Shown: piece by piece, positions 13,152-21,022 of the stretch | Layout: each line of letters starts with the position of its first letter | Numbering within the stretch: the stretch's first letter is position 1 | Assembly: GCA_947500295.1 (NCBI GenBank) | Contig: CANMRM010000004.1 | Span: 62,001-126,000, forward strand | Direction of reading: 5' to 3' | Origin: an uncultured Kordiimonas sp. | GTDB lineage: Bacteria > Pseudomonadota > Alphaproteobacteria > Sphingomonadales > Kordiimonadaceae | DNA: 64,000 bases | Program-made: the position numbers and the translations under genes | The notes under the pieces: model-generated | Told to the model about the DNA's origin: nothing | Databases searched by the model: none | What the model saw: only the letters and a program-made list of their open reading frames with translations

Positions 13152-13793
13152 ATGTCTAAACTGGATTTTGCAGCACTGCTATGTTCGCGTTTGTGCCATG
13201 ACTTGGTGAGCCCTGTTGGCGCGATCAATAATGGTCTTGAACTACTTTCCGGAGAACAGGACGAAACCATGCGGGAAGCTGTGTTTGATCTGATTGAAAA
13301 ATCTACCGCTCAAACCAGCAACAAGCTTCAGTTTTTCCGGCTGGCGTTTGGTGCGGCAGGCGGATTTTCAGCGCATCTTGATACTCGCGAAGCAGAAAAA
13401 TCGCTGCGCGCTTTTCTTGCTGGCAGCAAAGTTGACCTGTCCTGGAATGTCACAGTACCCGAGCTGTCAAAAGGAGGCGTAAAGCTGCTCCTGAATATGT
13501 GCCTTGTGATGGCAGAAACTCTCGTGCGGGGCGGCTCGCTTTCGGTGAACTTTACCGGTTCAGGGGAGGAGAAGGTTGCACTTTCTGTTGAAGTTGCGGG
13601 TGAGCGCGTAATTTTTCCTGAAGATATCCAGTCCGCTCTGCAGGGGCAGGTTAAGGAAAAGGACCTGGAGCCTCGCTCGGCACCGGCATTTTTGGCCAGC
13701 GTTGTTGCGTCTGAACTTGGCGGCGCTGTTCACGTCGACAAATACGAAGATCAAAAAATCCGCGTATCGGCGACGATAAAAGCCAACGCCTGA
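13152..13793 (+). CDS. chpT: ChpT-like histidine phosphotransferase
   Basis: 213-residue protein with the ChpT signature LCSRLCHDLVSPVGAINNG near the N-terminus; His16 is the expected phosphorylation site. A degenerate ATPase-like C-terminal half follows, as in the dimeric ChpT family. In Caulobacter, ChpT passes phosphate from CckA to CtrA and CpdR. The location fits: the che operon starts 173 bases downstream and ctrA is 6.4 kb away in the same cluster. That it serves the CckA-CtrA relay is inferred from the family; crosstalk with the adjacent CheA receiver is possible. Confidence 0.88.
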   Translation: MSKLDFAALLCSRLCHDLVSPVGAINNGLELLSGEQDETMREAVFDLIEKSTAQTSNKLQFFRLAFGAAGGFSAHLDTREAEKSLRAFLAGSKVDLSWNVTVPELSKGGVKLLLNMCLVMAETLVRGGSLSVNFTGSGEEKVALSVEVAGERVIFPEDIQSALQGQVKEKDLEPRSAPAFLASVVASELGGAVHVDKYEDQKIRVSATIKANA

Positions 13794-13966: not shown

Positions 13967-16900
13967 ATGGACGATCTATTAAACGAGTTTCTGACGGAAA
14001 CGGGTGAAAGCATCGACGTTGTTGACGTTGAGCTGGTCAAACTTGAGCAAGACCCCAACAATAAAGAAGTTTTGGACAACATTTTCCGACTGGTGCACAC
14101 CATCAAGGGAACATGTGGTTTTCTTGGGTTGCCCAGACTGGAGTCGGTGGCACATGCCTCCGAGAATGTGTTGGGCAAGTTCCGCGACGGGGAACTGCAG
14201 GTTTCTGAATCTGCCGTTACCGTCATTTTGGAAAGTCTGGACCGAATCAAGGAAATTCTTGCTGGACTGGAAGCAACAGAAGAAGAACCGGATGGTGATG
14301 ATAGCGAACTCATAGGCAGGCTTGACGCTATAGCTGAAGGAGGGGAAGCGCCGGCGGCAGAACCGGACCCAGAACCAGACACAGTTGACGGAGAGATTAT
14401 TGATCCCGTACTTGGTCGCTCCCTTAAGGCAGGCGAAGTTTCACTTGAAGAACTGGAAGCTGCCTTTGCAAATGCACCAGGTCCCGAAGAGACGGGCGAG
14501 GCGGAAGATACACCCGCATCGACGGAAACTTCAGCGGATGCTGATCAAAATCTGTTCGACCGGATCGGCGGCGAAGACACAGTGGCGGTTGCCGCTCATC
14601 TGATTAGTCAGCGGGTCGAAAACGACGACAAGCTGTCAAAGTTCTTCGAAGGATCCAGCACCGAGCAGCGCAAGGGCCGATTTATGGGCCTGATGCTTGC
14701 GCTCTTTAAAGATGACCTGGATGCTGCCGATGCCGTTGGTCGTCAGTTGGTTACAGTGGCTGGATTTGGGGAAGCGCAGTTTGACGGCATGATTGCGGTG
14801 GTGAAAACGGTTTTGACCGAATGTCACGTGAACGCCGACACCGCAGACGAAGCTGTGATGACTTTTGAGTTGGTGCGCGAGGCCGTGATTAACGCTTCGA
14901 AAGAGGTTGCCCAGCCAAAAGCCGCTGCGGGCCGCGAAAAAGCCGGCACAGAACAGGCGCAGGCGTCCAAGGAAACTCGGCGGTCATCTCAATCGATCCG
15001 GGTTAATGTGGACTTGCTGGAAGACCTGATGAATATGGTCTCGGAATTGGTGCTTACCCGCAACCAGTTGCTTCAAATTACGCGGAACATGGACAACTCG
15101 GAACTTGGTGTTCCACTGCAGCGCCTCAGCCAGTGCACGACGGAACTGCAGGAAAACGTGATGAAAACCCGAATGCAGCCAATAGGCAATGCATGGGCGA
15201 AGCTGCCACGGATCGTTCGGGACCTCACTGTTGAACTCGACAAAAAAATCGAGCTTGAAATGCTCGGTGCAGATACTGAACTGGACCGCCAGGTTTTGGA
15301 ACTGATCAAAGACCCGCTCACTCATATGGTGCGCAACTCGGCTGACCATGGCGTGGAATCGCCTGCTGAACGGATCGCGGCCGGCAAACCCGAGATGGGT
15401 ACCATTGTATTGAACGCCTATCACGAAGGCGGTCATATCATAATCGAAATCAAAGACGATGGTCGGGGCATTAATCCGGAAAAACTGAGCAAAAAGATTC
15501 TGGAAAAAGGTCTGGCAACGGAAGGCGAGCTTGCTGGCATGTCCGAGGCGCAGATCCAGAAGTTCATTTTCCATCCTGGTTTCTCCACGGCGGAGCAAGT
15601 GACAAGCGTGTCAGGCCGTGGTGTGGGCATGGACGTTGTTCGATCCAATATCGAAAAAATCGGCGGCACCATCGATATGGTGTCTACCGTTGGCAAGGGC
15701 AGTATATTCTCGATCAAGATTCCGCTGACGCTCGCGATTGTTGCTGGCCTGATCGTCAAAGCACAGGAGGAACGCTACGCAATTCCTCAGATCAGTGTTC
15801 TGGAACTTGTGCGTGCTACAAGCGCGGAGAAAGCCGGAGACAACGATCACAAGATAGAAATGATCAATAACACACCGGTCCTGCGCCTTCGAAACCGGCT
15901 GCTGCCACTTGTTTACTTGAACGAAGTTCTTGGCTTTGAAAGCAGGGAAGAGACGGAAGAGCGCGAATCTACGGACGACTTTATTGTTGTGAGCCAGGTC
16001 GGCGCCTTCACTTTCGGTATCGTTGTGGACCAGGTGTTTGACACCGAAGAAATTGTGGTCAAGCCAGTTGCACCCATCCTCAAGGACCTGGAGATATATT
16101 CAGGCAATACAATCCTCGGTGACGGCAGTGTTATCATGATCCTGGACCCCAACGGCATTGCGTCAATGGCCAATCAGGGCGTATCTGACGCAGCAGACGA
16201 TGAGGACGACCAGGAAATGGTGCGACGGGCAGCAAGCAACGAAAAAGAAAGCATGTTGGTCTTCCGGGCTGGTCAGGACCATCCGCGTGCTGTTCCGCTT
16301 TCACTTGTTGCGCGGCTCGAAGAAATTGAAATCGACAGTGTTGAATCTTCCGACGGCCGCCTGATGGTTCAGTATCGCGGTGCCCTAATGCCGCTGGTGC
16401 TTGCTGATGAAAACATGAGCCTACGCGAAAGTGGAAGCCAGCCGGTACTTGTGTTTACGGACCGGCAGTTCACCATGGGACTTGCCGTTGACGAGATTCT
16501 CGACATTGTCGAGGACGAACTTGAGATTAAACTGGCGTCTGACAAAAACGGTGTCATTGGTTCGGCGGTTATTAATGGTAAAGCTTCCGAAGTGATTGAT
16601 GTCACCTACTTCCTCGGCCTTGCATTCCCTGACTGGCTTGCCAGCAAGGACATGAGCGAGGATGCCACGACTTCCCGAAGCTCCGAGAACGTCCTGGTTG
16701 TGGATGACAGTGATTTCTTCCGAAATATGCTGCGGCCCATCCTGTCAGTGGCTGGATACAATGTGACAGCTGTCAATTGTGCGGAAGCCGCCATGGATCT
16801 TCTGGAAGCCGGTGACCGGTTTGACTTGATCATATCTGATATCGAAATGCCGGATATGTCTGGATACGAGTTCGCTCAGGCAGTGCGGGACAATGCGGAC

Positions 16901-17062
16901 TGGGCAGATACAAGGCTTGTTGCCCTGTCCGCGCTTTCCAGCGAGAGAGATGTCAACCGCGGGTTCGAAGCGGGCTTCGATGATTATGTAGCCAAGTTTG
17001 ACAAGGATACGCTACTTCGCAGCCTGTCGCAGCAGTTCAAGATTAAAGGAGACGCAGCATGA
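13967..17062 (+). CDS. cheA: Hybrid chemotaxis kinase CheA with inserted globin-like domain
   Basis: Chemotaxis histidine kinase of 1031 residues (ATG 13967; GTG 13961 would add two). Order: HPt/P1 with phospho-His44 in LVHTIKGTCGF; an acidic linker; a truncated-haemoglobin-like domain (about 196-310) where P2 would normally be; the P3 dimerisation helices (about 344-400); P4 ATPase with N box MVRNSADHGVE, G1 IKDDGRGIN and G2 GRGVGMDVV; a CheW-like P5 (about 588-735); a second CheW-like domain (about 762-885); and a C-terminal receiver (about 907-1026) with Asp958 in LIISDIEMPDMSGYEF. Hybrid CheA with extra CheW and receiver is known in alphaproteobacteria; the globin-like insert is not one I know. 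The stop overlaps cheW (ATGA). Confidence 0.96.
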   Translation: MDDLLNEFLTETGESIDVVDVELVKLEQDPNNKEVLDNIFRLVHTIKGTCGFLGLPRLESVAHASENVLGKFRDGELQVSESAVTVILESLDRIKEILAGLEATEEEPDGDDSELIGRLDAIAEGGEAPAAEPDPEPDTVDGEIIDPVLGRSLKAGEVSLEELEAAFANAPGPEETGEAEDTPASTETSADADQNLFDRIGGEDTVAVAAHLISQRVENDDKLSKFFEGSSTEQRKGRFMGLMLALFKDDLDAADAVGRQLVTVAGFGEAQFDGMIAVVKTVLTECHVNADTADEAVMTFELVREAVINASKEVAQPKAAAGREKAGTEQAQASKETRRSSQSIRVNVDLLEDLMNMVSELVLTRNQLLQITRNMDNSELGVPLQRLSQCTTELQENVMKTRMQPIGNAWAKLPRIVRDLTVELDKKIELEMLGADTELDRQVLELIKDPLTHMVRNSADHGVESPAERIAAGKPEMGTIVLNAYHEGGHIIIEIKDDGRGINPEKLSKKILEKGLATEGELAGMSEAQIQKFIFHPGFSTAEQVTSVSGRGVGMDVVRSNIEKIGGTIDMVSTVGKGSIFSIKIPLTLAIVAGLIVKAQEERYAIPQISVLELVRATSAEKAGDNDHKIEMINNTPVLRLRNRLLPLVYLNEVLGFESREETEERESTDDFIVVSQVGAFTFGIVVDQVFDTEEIVVKPVAPILKDLEIYSGNTILGDGSVIMILDPNGIASMANQGVSDAADDEDDQEMVRRAASNEKESMLVFRAGQDHPRAVPLSLVARLEEIEIDSVESSDGRLMVQYRGALMPLVLADENMSLRESGSQPVLVFTDRQFTMGLAVDEILDIVEDELEIKLASDKNGVIGSAVINGKASEVIDVTYFLGLAFPDWLASKDMSEDATTSRSSENVLVVDDSDFFRNMLRPILSVAGYNVTAVNCAEAAMDLLEAGDRFDLIISDIEMPDMSGYEFAQAVRDNADWADTRLVALSALSSERDVNRGFEAGFDDYVAKFDKDTLLRSLSQQFKIKGDAA

Positions 17063-17544
17063 ACGATATCGTCGTACGTGAAGACCTGAGCCTGGTTGCT
17101 ACCGGTTCACAGGACTTCGTCACTGTCATGCTTGATGGCCAAATGGTCGGCATTCCTGTGCTGGCGGTTCATGACGTGCTCAATGCGCAGAAGATCACGT
17201 TGATACCTCGTGCCCCCGATTGGGTCGCCGGGGTCCTTAACCTTCGCGGTCGGATTGTAACGGCAATTGATCTTCGTCGCAGGCTGGGACTACCCCCCCT
17301 GGACGAAGGCCTGTCGAGCATGTCGGTTGTGGTTGAGCACAATGAAGAGCCATACAGTCTGCAGATCGACAAGGTGGGAGAAGTCCTGTCATTGGAAGAT
17401 CATCTGTTTGAAAAAAATCCAGTGACGCTCGACCCGCGGTGGCGCGAAGTGAGTGTTGGCATATATCGGCTGAAGGACCAGCTGTTGCCAATACTCGACG
17501 TTGATCGTTTGTTGGCGTTCGAAAGCAATAGCAAAGCTGCTTGA
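17059..17544 (+). CDS. cheW: Chemotaxis adaptor CheW
   Basis: 161-residue CheW that couples receptors to CheA. The core shows VTVMLDGQMVGIPVLAVHDV, the PRAPDWVAGVLNLRGRIVTA motif, and the C-terminal LKDQLLPILDVDRLL. Length is normal, with a short N-terminal extension. ATGA overlap with cheA indicates coupled translation and equal dosage with the kinase. Confidence 0.96.
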   Translation: MNDIVVREDLSLVATGSQDFVTVMLDGQMVGIPVLAVHDVLNAQKITLIPRAPDWVAGVLNLRGRIVTAIDLRRRLGLPPLDEGLSSMSVVVEHNEEPYSLQIDKVGEVLSLEDHLFEKNPVTLDPRWREVSVGIYRLKDQLLPILDVDRLLAFESNSKAA

Positions 17545-17598: not shown

Positions 17599-17964
17599 AT
17601 GAAACTATGCCTTGTCGTTGACGATTCGAAGGTGATCCGCAAGGTCGCCCGGCGCATACTTGAGGAGCTCAACTTCGATATTGAGGAGGCGGTAGATGGT
17701 CAGGACGCCCTTGACGCATGTGCTCGAAATCTCCCTGACGTGGTGCTTCTTGACTGGAACATGCCTGTCATGGATGGCCTTGAGTTTTTGAAAGCTATCA
17801 GAGCCAAAGAGGGAATCGAACAGCCGGTTGTCGTCTTTTGCACAACCGAGAACGACATGTCCCATATCCGCATGGCTATAGAGGCCGGCGCAAACGAGTA
17901 CATCATGAAGCCATTCGATCGAGAAATCATCGAAGCCAAGTTTACCCAGGTCGGCCTCATATAG
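17599..17964 (+). CDS. cheY: Single-domain response regulator CheY
   Basis: 121-residue receiver-only protein that carries phosphate from CheA to the flagellar switch. The acidic pair is in LVVDDSKV, the phospho-Asp in VVLLDWNMPVMDGLEF, the switch Thr in VFCTTEN, and the Lys in YIMKPFD. It starts after an AGGGAGA site and lies within the che operon, which supports the CheY assignment. Confidence 0.94.
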   Translation: MKLCLVVDDSKVIRKVARRILEELNFDIEEAVDGQDALDACARNLPDVVLLDWNMPVMDGLEFLKAIRAKEGIEQPVVVFCTTENDMSHIRMAIEAGANEYIMKPFDREIIEAKFTQVGLI

Positions 17965-17983: not shown

Positions 17984-19264
17984 GTGAATTCTGCTGCTTC
18001 AAATCCCAATCCAGCATCGGGAAAGAAAAATGGGCCTTATCGTGTGATGGTTGTCGATGACAGCGCCATCATTCGTGGGTTTTTATGTCGTTATCTTTCT
18101 GAAGACCCCAACATCGACGTTGTTACCACGGCCAACAATGGTGCAGTAGCACTGAGACAGCTTCGGCAACACGATATCGAAGTGGTGGTTCTCGACATTG
18201 AAATGCCTGAAATGGATGGCATGACGGCCTTGCCGAGGATGGTTGATATTCAGCCTGACCTGCAAGTTGTTATGGCCTCAACACTCACGCGCAAGAATGC
18301 CGAAATCAGTTTGCGGGCGCTTCAGATGGGTGCGGTTGATTATGTGCCGAAGCCGGAAACGGCGCGCTCTGTCAATGCCAATATAGATTTTCGGCGGGAA
18401 CTGGTTGAAAAAGTGAAAGCCTGGGCGTCCAGACGGCGCAAGAAGCTTGGCATGGAACAACCGGAAAACGTGACCAACACAGGGCGTTCTGTTACTGCGC
18501 AGCCATCCTTTGCGCGGCCGTCCCGCCCACAGGCATCTGCTGGTTTTGTTTCTGCAAGTCGCCCGAAAGCCACGTCAGCCAGTGTGGCAACTGCTCGTCC
18601 AGTGGACCGCCAGACTGTTTCATCCGCGCCGACGATGGCGGGCGGGAGCAAACCCATTGCGCTCAAAAAGGGCTCCCCGCGAGCTCCCCGGGTAATGCTG
18701 ATCGGTTCGTCTACAGGGGGACCACAGGCTCTGATGAAATTTTTCGCAGGGTTTAAAAGCCGCCCCAAGGTTCCGATTTTGATAACCCAGCACATGCCAG
18801 CCACTTTTACCGCCATTTTGGCCGACCACCTGCACCAATCGACCGGATGGCCGGCGCAAGAGGGCAAGCATGGCATGGAACCAAAGCCGGGTGAAATTTA
18901 CATCGCGCCGGGTGGCAAGCACATGGAACTGGAAACAAGGGATGGCAAGGTTCTTATCAAGCTGACTGAGGAACCTCCCGAGAATTTCTGCCGGCCAGCT
19001 GTTGATCCCTTGTTCAGGACCGCCGGCAAGATATTCGGTGAGCGTATTCTGGCGGTTATTCTGACCGGCATGGGCCATGATGGCCTCAAAGGTGCCCGGG
19101 AAATCACAAAGGAAGGAGCAACATTGCTTGCACAGGATGAGGCAACGAGTGTTGTCTGGGGCATGCCTGGCGCTGTCGCAACCGCAGGCCTTTGTACAGA
19201 AGTGCTGCCTATTACAGAAATCGGGCCTGCTGCAAGCAAGCGGCTTGAAGGAGGAATCGCGTGA
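17984..19264 (+). CDS. cheB: Chemotaxis methylesterase CheB
   Basis: Removes methyl groups from chemoreceptors when phosphorylated. 426 residues from GTG 17984: an N-terminal receiver (VMVVDDSAIIRG; phospho-Asp in VVVLDIEMPEMDG), a long Ala/Ser/Arg-rich linker (about 150-225), and the C-terminal esterase with Ser in LIGSSTGGPQA, His in ITQHMPATFT and Asp in TGMGHDG. The linker is longer than in enteric CheB. The stop overlaps the cheR start (GTGA). Confidence 0.96.
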   Translation: MNSAASNPNPASGKKNGPYRVMVVDDSAIIRGFLCRYLSEDPNIDVVTTANNGAVALRQLRQHDIEVVVLDIEMPEMDGMTALPRMVDIQPDLQVVMASTLTRKNAEISLRALQMGAVDYVPKPETARSVNANIDFRRELVEKVKAWASRRRKKLGMEQPENVTNTGRSVTAQPSFARPSRPQASAGFVSASRPKATSASVATARPVDRQTVSSAPTMAGGSKPIALKKGSPRAPRVMLIGSSTGGPQALMKFFAGFKSRPKVPILITQHMPATFTAILADHLHQSTGWPAQEGKHGMEPKPGEIYIAPGGKHMELETRDGKVLIKLTEEPPENFCRPAVDPLFRTAGKIFGERILAVILTGMGHDGLKGAREITKEGATLLAQDEATSVVWGMPGAVATAGLCTEVLPITEIGPAASKRLEGGIA

Positions 19265-20100
19265 ATAATCAAGATTTTGAATTCCTCGCCAAATTGCTCA
19301 AGGAAAAATCGGGCCTGACGCTAACTCCCGACAAGGTTTATCTGCTGGAAAGCCGGCTCACACCATTGGCCCGCAAGCGCGGCCTGGATACGCTGGATGC
19401 CCTGGTGCAGAAGTTGAGGACAAGCCGGGACGAAGGGCTGGTTAAAGACGTCACGGAAGCGATGACAACCAACGAGTCTTTCTTTTTTCGGGATAACACG
19501 CCTTTTGATATCTTCAAAAACCATGTGCTTCCCGCGATGGAAAAGGCGCGGCCGAACAAGAAGCTGCGTATATGGTGCGCGGCGGCGTCAACCGGCCAGG
19601 AGCCCTATTCCCTGGCAATTCTCTTGAAAGAGAACTGGGCTAAATGGCAAGGGTGGAACATCGAGATTGTGGGTACTGACATTTGTACCCAGGTACTGGA
19701 AAAGGCCAAGGCAGGCGCCTACAGTCAATTTGAGGTGCAACGTGGTTTGCCGATCCAGATGTTGATCAAATACTTCAAGCAGGAAGGTGATGTGTGGCGT
19801 ATCAACGAAGATATTCGCCGCATGGTCTCATACCGCCCGTTTAACTTGCTCAGCAGCTTCAGTCTTCTCGGGTCTTTTGATGTTATATACTGCCGGAACG
19901 TGTTGATCTATTTTGACCAGCCAACAAAAAAAGATGTTCTGGAGCGCATGCATAGTGCTTTGGCAAAAGACGGTACGCTGTTTTTGGGAGCTGCAGAGAC
20001 TGTTCTGGGCATTACCGACAAACTTCGGCCGGTCAGGGGACAGCGCGGTATGTATGTATCGACCGATGGCAATGCCGAGGAATTGATGGGCCTGAAATAA
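19261..20100 (+). CDS. cheR: Chemoreceptor methyltransferase CheR
   Basis: SAM-dependent methyltransferase of 279 residues that methylates receptor glutamates. It has the N-terminal all-helical domain, TTNESFFFRD, the SAM-binding motif WCAAASTGQEPYSLA, and CRNVLIYFD. The start is GTG within the cheB stop overlap. It is the last gene of the operon; a strong hairpin terminator follows. No receptor (MCP) gene lies in this window. Confidence 0.96.
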   Translation: MNNQDFEFLAKLLKEKSGLTLTPDKVYLLESRLTPLARKRGLDTLDALVQKLRTSRDEGLVKDVTEAMTTNESFFFRDNTPFDIFKNHVLPAMEKARPNKKLRIWCAAASTGQEPYSLAILLKENWAKWQGWNIEIVGTDICTQVLEKAKAGAYSQFEVQRGLPIQMLIKYFKQEGDVWRINEDIRRMVSYRPFNLLSSFSLLGSFDVIYCRNVLIYFDQPTKKDVLERMHSALAKDGTLFLGAAETVLGITDKLRPVRGQRGMYVSTDGNAEELMGLK

Positions 20101-20166: not shown

Positions 20167-20874
20167 TCAGCTTGCTGCAGCTTCAGCTTCCTCTTCATCG
20201 GTTGGGTTGCGAAGCACGTATCCGCGGCCCCACACTGTCTCGATATAATTTTGGCCGCTTGACGCAGCAGCCAGTTTCTTACGGAGCTTGCAGATAAAGA
20301 CGTCAATAATCTTCAATTCAGGCTCATCAATGCCACCATACAGGTGATTGAGGAACATCTCCTTCGTCAGCGTACTGCCTTTTCTAAGCGATAGTAGCTC
20401 AAGCATCGCATATTCTTTGCCGGTGAGATGTACACGCTTGTTTTCCACTTCCACCGTTTTGGTGTCCAGGTTCACAGCGAGTTTGCCGGTGTTGATTATG
20501 GATTGTGAATGCCCTTTGGAGCGCCGCACAATCGCATGGATGCGAGCAACCAGTTCCTCTTTGTGGAACGGTTTTGTCAGATAGTCATCTGCGCCAAAAC
20601 CAAGACCCTTCACCTTGTTTTCCATCTCATTCAGACCGGAAAGAATAAGGATCGGCGTATTGACCTTTGCTGTCCTCAATTTCTTGAGTACATCATAGCC
20701 GTGCATATCCGGCAGGTTCAGGTCCAGCAGGATAATGTCATAATCATATAGCTTGCCTAGATCCAAACCTTCTTCACCCAGGTCGGTGCAATAAATGTTG
20801 AAACCTTCGGCGTTCAGCATCAGTTCAATGCTGCGGCTGATGGTAGGATCATCTTCAATCAAGAGAACACGCAT
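20167..20874 (-). CDS. ctrA: Cell-cycle master response regulator CtrA
   Basis: OmpR-family regulator that in alphaproteobacteria controls division, motility and, in Caulobacter, replication. 235 residues from ATG 20874: receiver ([20 protein letters not shown], phospho-Asp51 in [16 protein letters not shown], Lys in [11 protein letters not shown]) and the winged helix ([42 protein letters not shown]). The 30-residue upstream extension is not conserved and was dropped. The tail ends EAEAAAS; in Caulobacter the C-terminal alanines are needed for ClpXP turnover, so this tail may also be a degron. It is divergent from fliI and lies near chpT and sciP, its usual partners. Confidence 0.97.
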
Positions 20875-20940
20875 GGTTGGTCCCTGTCTCCATAAACAAA
20901 ATCGAAGCACCTGAAGTTCGTTTTGCGCTGTGACTATCTT

Positions 20941-20957
20941 AGAAGTTGCCCACTTCT
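20941..20957. promoter_or_regulatory. Inverted repeat in ctrA upstream region
   Basis: AGAAGT and ACTTCT are perfect inverted arms separated by TGCCC, 67-83 bases before the ctrA ATG, followed at once by TTAACCA. This could be an operator or an RNA hairpin in the ctrA leader. No matching copy was noticed elsewhere. Confidence 0.35.
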
Positions 20958-21022
20958 TAACCACATAACCCGCTGATTTCAGGTGCCTTACGATGCTCGT
21001 CCCCCAAGCAACCTCTGGCGTT

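Follow-up and report, generated by a model that had tools for sequence, protein, structure and literature searches.

A probable haem-less truncated globin in the chemotaxis kinase CheA of a Kordiimonas-like genome, and likely haem-binding counterparts in CheAs of other Alphaproteobacteria

The stretch of DNA analyzed here (the window; 64,000 nucleotides of contig CANMRM010000004.1 from an uncultured Kordiimonas sp.) encodes a chemotaxis kinase, CheA, in which the linker between the phosphotransfer domain (P1) and the dimerization domain (P3) contains a block that is very probably a haem-less descendant of group 1 truncated haemoglobins (trHb1). A trHb1 domain was found in the same linker in at least 20 of 385 sampled alphaproteobacterial genomes, and those CheA globins outside the window that have kept the ligands of haem probably bind it, judging from their residues. 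This family of globin-bearing CheAs, with a haem site that is sometimes intact, is a more important result than the window domain. For the history as a whole, the balance is about even: certain alphaproteobacterial CheAs would sense oxygen or nitric oxide by a haem-bound truncated globin of their own (in two CheAs with a second one in the CheW-like domain), and several lineages, including Kordiimonas, would later have lost haem while retaining the globin as a new regulatory module.

The window protein has Pfam matches for every part of a CheA core (Hpt, H-kinase_dim, HATPase_c, and CheW) in the order Hpt, linker, trHb1-like domain, H-kinase_dim, HATPase_c, two CheW stretches, and a receiver (Response_reg). 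Class F5 of CheA is defined by a duplicated CheW domain together with a receiver domain, and the window CheA was compared with this definition by its Pfam matches alone. A single H-kinase_dim match was found in the genome, making this the only CheA found there; the named records with the closest CheAs are Kordiimonas and Kordiimonadaceae. A preliminary description of this DNA had pointed to a globin-like block within CheA, and the strings it quoted are indeed present at that place. That observation is confirmed, and its interpretation is supported with corrections concerning the F8 residue, the role of P2, and the restriction to one organism. Namely, profile searches bear out the kinship to trHb1, a structure model bears out the globin fold, and alignment to haem-competent relatives bears out the loss of the haem ligands.

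The isolated block matches the Pfam family Bac_globin at 23.1 bits (cut-off 21). A profile built from 44 relatives matches trHb1 chains at 1.3e-19 over positions 2-118 of 129, i.e., the similarity extends over the full length, and a profile from 33 Kordiimonadales-side sequences alone still matches them at 8.2e-11. Since the Pfam match is accompanied by matches of both profiles, the resemblance to globins is beyond chance. Each of the 31 solved chains matched at E < 0.002 is a truncated haemoglobin or a globin of this type, domains at the same place in other CheAs exceed the Pfam cut-off over almost the whole profile, and the block is predicted by modeling to adopt the 2-on-2 globin fold. In Pfam, the window block matched Bac_globin only, and not the Protoglobin family typical of globin-coupled sensors; Protoglobin was matched in two of the 44 blocks (best 0.0028) and in the CheA of L115 at 27.8 bits (cut-off 25), versus 63.2 bits for Bac_globin.

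Positions of the haem site were obtained by aligning the domains with haem-competent relatives in hmmalign and MAFFT; the names B10, E7, E11, and F8 follow HbN numbering. The distal Tyr at B10 is replaced by Ser214 in the window, and CD1 is Phe227, both as in the preliminary description. The latter had aligned the proximal His with Val262, a placement that was dropped because both alignments give Gly258, four residues earlier, as F8. The only histidines of the domain are 211 and 287, with none between them to fill the proximal site, wherever F8 is placed. Across the 33 Kordiimonadales-side domains, F8 is never His (0/33), B10 is occupied by Ala, Ser, Gly, or Cys, E7 is Arg in 28, and E11 is Phe in 27. 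The Emcibacter-side domains (L057-L061, L063-L066, L068, L144, L148-L150, and L152) have His at B10 and Phe at F8 in 15 of 15, and the domains of other Alphaproteobacteria have the F8 His in 18 of 34 and the B10 Tyr in 13 of 34. The Kordiimonadales-side and Emcibacter-side sets were named by locus numbers, record titles, and the CheA tree, with no formal taxonomy, and the residue counts exclude three cut-off domains (L026, L055, and L056) and identical rows. With Phe at E11, Arg at E7, a small residue at B10, and no proximal His, the window pocket, as read from its aligned residues, has ceased to resemble a haem pocket.

Among 82 distinct CheA-linked domains, the proximal His is present in 18, and 7 have the full set of B10 Tyr, CD1 Phe, E7 Leu, E11 Gln, and F8 His. 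Two CheAs have a second haem-competent trHb1 copy set into the CheW-like (P5) domain; in one of them (L130), the full set is found in the P5 copy, and the copy in the linker has neither Tyr B10 nor Gln E11. The preliminary description had regarded a globin inside CheA as an unfamiliar arrangement; its place inside CheA stands, but it is not peculiar to the window organism, as the search of related genomes recovered the same insert and haem-competent versions occur in other Alphaproteobacteria. At the level of orders, the domain was found in CheA in both genomes of the order of G180, in one of four genomes of the order of G116, and in a CheA-size frame in 1 of 11 genomes of the order of G361. 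For the order of G138 (22 genomes), G138 and G252 were confirmed as CheA, with the frames of G817, G820, and G821 outside that check. L178 proved to be a CheA carrying the globin domain and not a free globin. In a sample of the phylum (398 genomes), frames of more than 600 residues among the matches listed were Kordiimonadales-side or belonged to G035 (same order), G094, G663, and G627. Plasmid records gave 36 matches, all below 60% identity, and for the 30 of these 36 listed, the annotated features under the match read 'group 1 truncated hemoglobin'.

Several other frames were considered and set aside as CheA. L145, L146, and L147 (G663, G627, and G664) had no match to CheA P3-P5. The long frames of L119 (G342) and L132 (G250) were also rejected: L119 (1965-4829, + strand) encodes a putative chemoreceptor whose N-terminal trHb1 is haem-competent (Tyr, Phe, Gln, Gln, His) and precedes PAS and an MCP signaling domain, and L132 (2531-2938, + strand) is a cut-off relative. 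The window genome itself has a second Bac_globin (L002, 22.8 bits), for which a partial alignment puts Pro at F8.

In 11 CheAs from L033 to L049, the domain is 52-85% identical to that of the window, and the linker preceding it is 5-43% identical; in L059 and L073 the domain identity is 22-23%. Ratios of nonsynonymous to synonymous substitution rates (dN/dS) of 0.047, 0.054, and 0.059 were obtained for the three of five close pairs that were computable, and are rough at dS of 1.5 to 2.4. Twelve alignment columns are invariant in 33 sequences (L3, G8, G9, D11, V15, H18, which is His211, F34, G48, F79, M105, E108, and R111). The window domain would thus persist in the P1 tether as a folded module under selection.

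On a tree of CheA cores (118 rows), presence and absence of the domain requires seven changes, and gain and loss are indistinguishable. Scored as three states (none, 42; haem-less, 62; haem-competent, 14), the tree requires 14 changes versus 46 with shuffled labels. The haem-competent label alone requires 9 versus 13.5, indicating loose clustering; this label was assigned by the author to 15 loci, of which 14 are on the tree and some have an incomplete residue set. E7 is Gln in 28 of 30 free domains and Leu in 24 of 34 CheA-linked domains outside the Kordiimonadales and Emcibacter sets, a difference that hints at one entry into CheA. A single clade of 30 CheA-linked domains was not rejected by the approximately unbiased (AU) test (p-AU 0.33), which left out 28 of the 89 domain rows (22 Kordiimonadales and Emcibacter rows, L151, L131, the L130 linker copy, L128, L182, and L145). 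Of the 30 free globins in this test, 25 came from the class and 5 from other parts of the phylum; the set was chosen among strong matches, unscreened for other fused domains, and did not include L002. In the proposed scenario, an alphaproteobacterial CheA would have acquired a trHb1 domain in the linker between P1 and P3, with haem binding subsequently lost on the line to the Kordiimonas-like genome of the window.

The window domain shares with group 1 truncated haemoglobins (Mycobacterium tuberculosis HbN, 1idr; Chlamydomonas reinhardtii THB1, 4xdi/6cii; Paramecium caudatum, 1dlw) a common profile, the predicted fold, and the CD1 Phe, and the L115-type CheA domains additionally share B10 Tyr, E7 Leu, E11 Gln, and F8 His. 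The solved matches are haem-binding proteins or isolated chains, whereas the domain described here is part of CheA and, in the window, has lost the ligands. A survey of 13,673 CheAs (Berry, Andrianova and Zhulin 2023; PMC10782961) describes CheA as a protein without a sensor domain that relies on chemoreceptors, and names P2, receiver, and CheC/CheX as auxiliary domains; its main text contains neither 'globin' nor 'haem' (0 occurrences) and no word beginning with 'heme'. The globin is likewise an extra on the CheA core, in the same linker as P2, and the receiver is also found in the window CheA. In HemAT-type globin-coupled sensors and globin-coupled histidine kinases, a globin is similarly tied to taxis or kinase signaling, but there an N-terminal globin precedes a C-terminal output domain (PMC13401364), whereas here a truncated globin lies between P1 and P3. 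The same source, a 2026 review of aerotaxis, places globins in receptors in the 12 examined of its 16 mentions, none of which uses 'truncated'. The PAS-Bac_globin protein of Corallococcus coralloides (PMC6194562) also has Bac_globin in a chemosensory protein, but in a receptor and not a kinase. Kinase fusions as such are not new, because a 2020 paper on an algal globin mentions 2/2 haemoglobin domains fused to a protein kinase or nitrate reductase (PMC7082302), in a passage naming neither CheA nor chemotaxis. The nearest precedent, by analogy, for a pair of haem-less and haem-binding forms is the stressosome protein RsbR, also a sensor globin on a signaling protein, which is a haem globin sensing oxygen in Vibrio brasiliensis and a non-haem globin in Bacillus subtilis (PMC4976288). 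No paper on a globin in CheA was found among the open PubMed Central articles searched, and the claim of novelty is bounded likewise.

P1 of Escherichia coli CheA has to reach first the catalytic domain and then a response regulator, over a range set by the linkers; the usual ligands of trHb1 are oxygen and nitric oxide. Where the haem site survives, the domain would bind haem, and oxygen or nitric oxide would set the access of P1 to the catalytic domain or to the response regulators. A ligand-switched globin in this tether could also alter the contacts made by P1. In either case the gas input would be part of the kinase and would not depend on chemoreceptors. That kinase activity is controlled by gas in the haem-competent CheAs seems to us an evenly weighted possibility. 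The window domain, presumably with no haem, a filled pocket, and a kept surface, would most likely provide a regulatory contact surface for P1, the catalytic core, or a partner, a role that is proposed tentatively.

The linker contains a further conserved element, a peptide at residues 153-173 that includes EVSLEELEAAFANAPGP and is similar to the FliM peptide encoded in this genome (LDQDEIDSLLGF). It is 90-100% identical in 9 of the 11 CheAs from L033 to L049 and 71% and 81% identical in the remaining two, with 5-43% identity in the 21 residues that follow it. The peptide pattern occurs in 40 of the 48 distinct globin-containing linkers and in 15 of the 42 that lack a globin, versus a shuffled expectation of 0.11 (mean) for the 90 linkers, and in two or three copies in the CheAs of L071, L077, L097, L103, and L108. 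It was absent near the globin from all 29 CheAs examined between L113 and L143, whatever the state of their haem site, so it is no general feature of CheAs with a globin. The FliM peptide binds CheY, and by sequence likeness the CheA peptide may be a CheY-docking peptide that substitutes for P2.

Several observations weigh against the identity, selection, and history proposed here. The score of Bac_globin on the whole CheA is just 17.2 bits, below the cut-off; both Bac_globin matches span about the first half of the profile alone; the best Foldseek E for the window model is 3.7e-4, with one match at E <= 0.001; and Z scores are inflated by helical folds. The domain is less conserved than P1, P3, and P4, its identity to the window drops to 38-48% in L030, L050, L051, and L054, and the dS values are close to or beyond saturation. 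The best tree of the AU test requires three changes for a CheA origin, the domain tree of 89 rows is poorly resolved, and the columns of the AU test are few. A different cofactor or metal is also conceivable, given the B10 His of the Emcibacter side and the near-invariant His211. The low whole-protein score and the half-profile match of a single sequence could be taken to mean that helical segments resemble a globin by chance, but this idea is countered by the 31 of 31 solved-chain matches, the structure match, and the near-full-profile Pfam matches in other CheAs; it is exceedingly improbable, and in our view already refuted. It is quite unlikely that the domain is a decaying remnant acting merely as a spacer: the loss of the haem ligands, an identity below that of the core domains, and near relatives on the CheA tree without the domain (L069-L071) are all compatible with decay, but the domain is far more conserved than disordered linkers, with dN/dS of about 0.05 in three pairs and its twelve invariant columns.

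Two further explanations give the domain a different function. The preliminary description had placed it at the site of P2, the CheY/CheB-docking domain, and in the first explanation it took over this job and docks CheY or CheB near P1. Its position is indeed that of P2 in E. coli-type CheA, and P2 is missing from over half of CheAs (PMC10782961); family-wide, some residues that may face outward vary little or not at all, among them His211, Lys236, and Arg304. However, no P2 profile in Pfam matched the window CheA (E <= 10) or the 44 blocks (E <= 1), and the structure model of the window block is a globin instead; by profile, a known P2 variant was rejected. The separate FliM-like peptide, present also in CheAs without globin, argues against a docking role, and the haem-competent versions suggest that sensing came earlier; a takeover of the P2 function is therefore unlikely, and only the positional part of the proposal stands. 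Somewhat unlikely, too, is the binding of a non-haem ligand, for instance a fatty acid, with which the non-haem globin of B. anthracis RsbR was crystallized (PMC4976288); the fold and the CD1 Phe (33/33) have been kept here, but the frequent Phe at E11 and Arg at E7 suggest a filled pocket.

Coordinates of the CheA gene, its domains and haem-site positions, the neighboring genes, and the second globin copies (window positions unless a locus is given) are collected below.

Table 1. Features of the window CheA and its surroundings, and trHb1 copies within P5 of other CheAs
Feature	Position	Strand	Basis or remark
ChpT-like phosphotransferase (PF10090)	13152..13793	+	Pfam; directly upstream of cheA
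cheA	13967..17062 (open frame 13967-17059)	+	Open frame of 1031 codons, 1031 residues; Pfam domains
P1 / Hpt domain, residues 3-96	13973..14254	+	Pfam PF01627, 3.8e-16
Conserved linker peptide LKAGEVSLEELEAAFANAPGP, residues 153-173, FliM N-terminal peptide-like	14423..14485	+	Sequence comparison
Probable haem-less group 1 truncated globin domain, residues 195-314	14549..14908	+	Profile searches and structure model
His211, B7 by alignment	14597..14599	+	Invariant in 33/33 Kordiimonadales-side domains; at least 90% in 44-sequence alignment
Ser214, B10 (distal Tyr) position	14606..14608	+	Alignment
Phe227, CD1	14645..14647	+	Invariant in 33/33 Kordiimonadales-side domains
Arg235 (E7) to Phe239 (E11)	14669..14683	+	Stand in for Gln/Gln or Leu/Gln of haem-binding relatives
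Gly258, F8 (proximal His) position	14738..14740	+	MAFFT and hmmalign
P3 dimerization domain (H-kinase_dim), residues 341-401	14987..15169	+	Pfam PF02895
HATPase domain of CheA	residues 449-588	+	Pfam
CheW	17059..17544	+	Downstream of cheA
CheY-like single receiver protein	17599..17964	+	Chemotaxis cluster
CheB	17984..19264	+	Chemotaxis cluster
CheR	19261..20100	+	Chemotaxis cluster
OmpR-type regulator	20167-20964	opposite strand	After cheR, beside chemotaxis cluster
Second trHb1 in CheW-like (P5) domain	L116:3969-4370	+	Haem-competent
Second trHb1 in CheW-like (P5) domain	L130:272-658	-	Full residue set

Phosphorelay genes (ChpT-like and OmpR-type) and chemotaxis genes lie side by side in the window. 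The OmpR-type regulator is presumably CtrA-like, and beyond it are a putative ATPase of the FliI kind and then a FliJ-like gene (FliJ match below the cut-off).

The globin of the window CheA can escape automatic annotation because its whole-protein score lies under the Pfam cut-off. Haem-competent and haem-less forms at one protein position, with L073 as an intermediate, offer a series for the passage from a gas sensor to a haem-less regulatory domain. The residues of the haem-competent relatives suggest that a chemotaxis kinase may itself be a sensor of oxygen or nitric oxide. If this is true, a haem globin in the P1 tether would feed gas signals directly into the chemotaxis array, enabling aerotaxis of a kind that would not need an Aer- or HemAT-type receptor, and the kinase at the center of the array would itself be a receptor.
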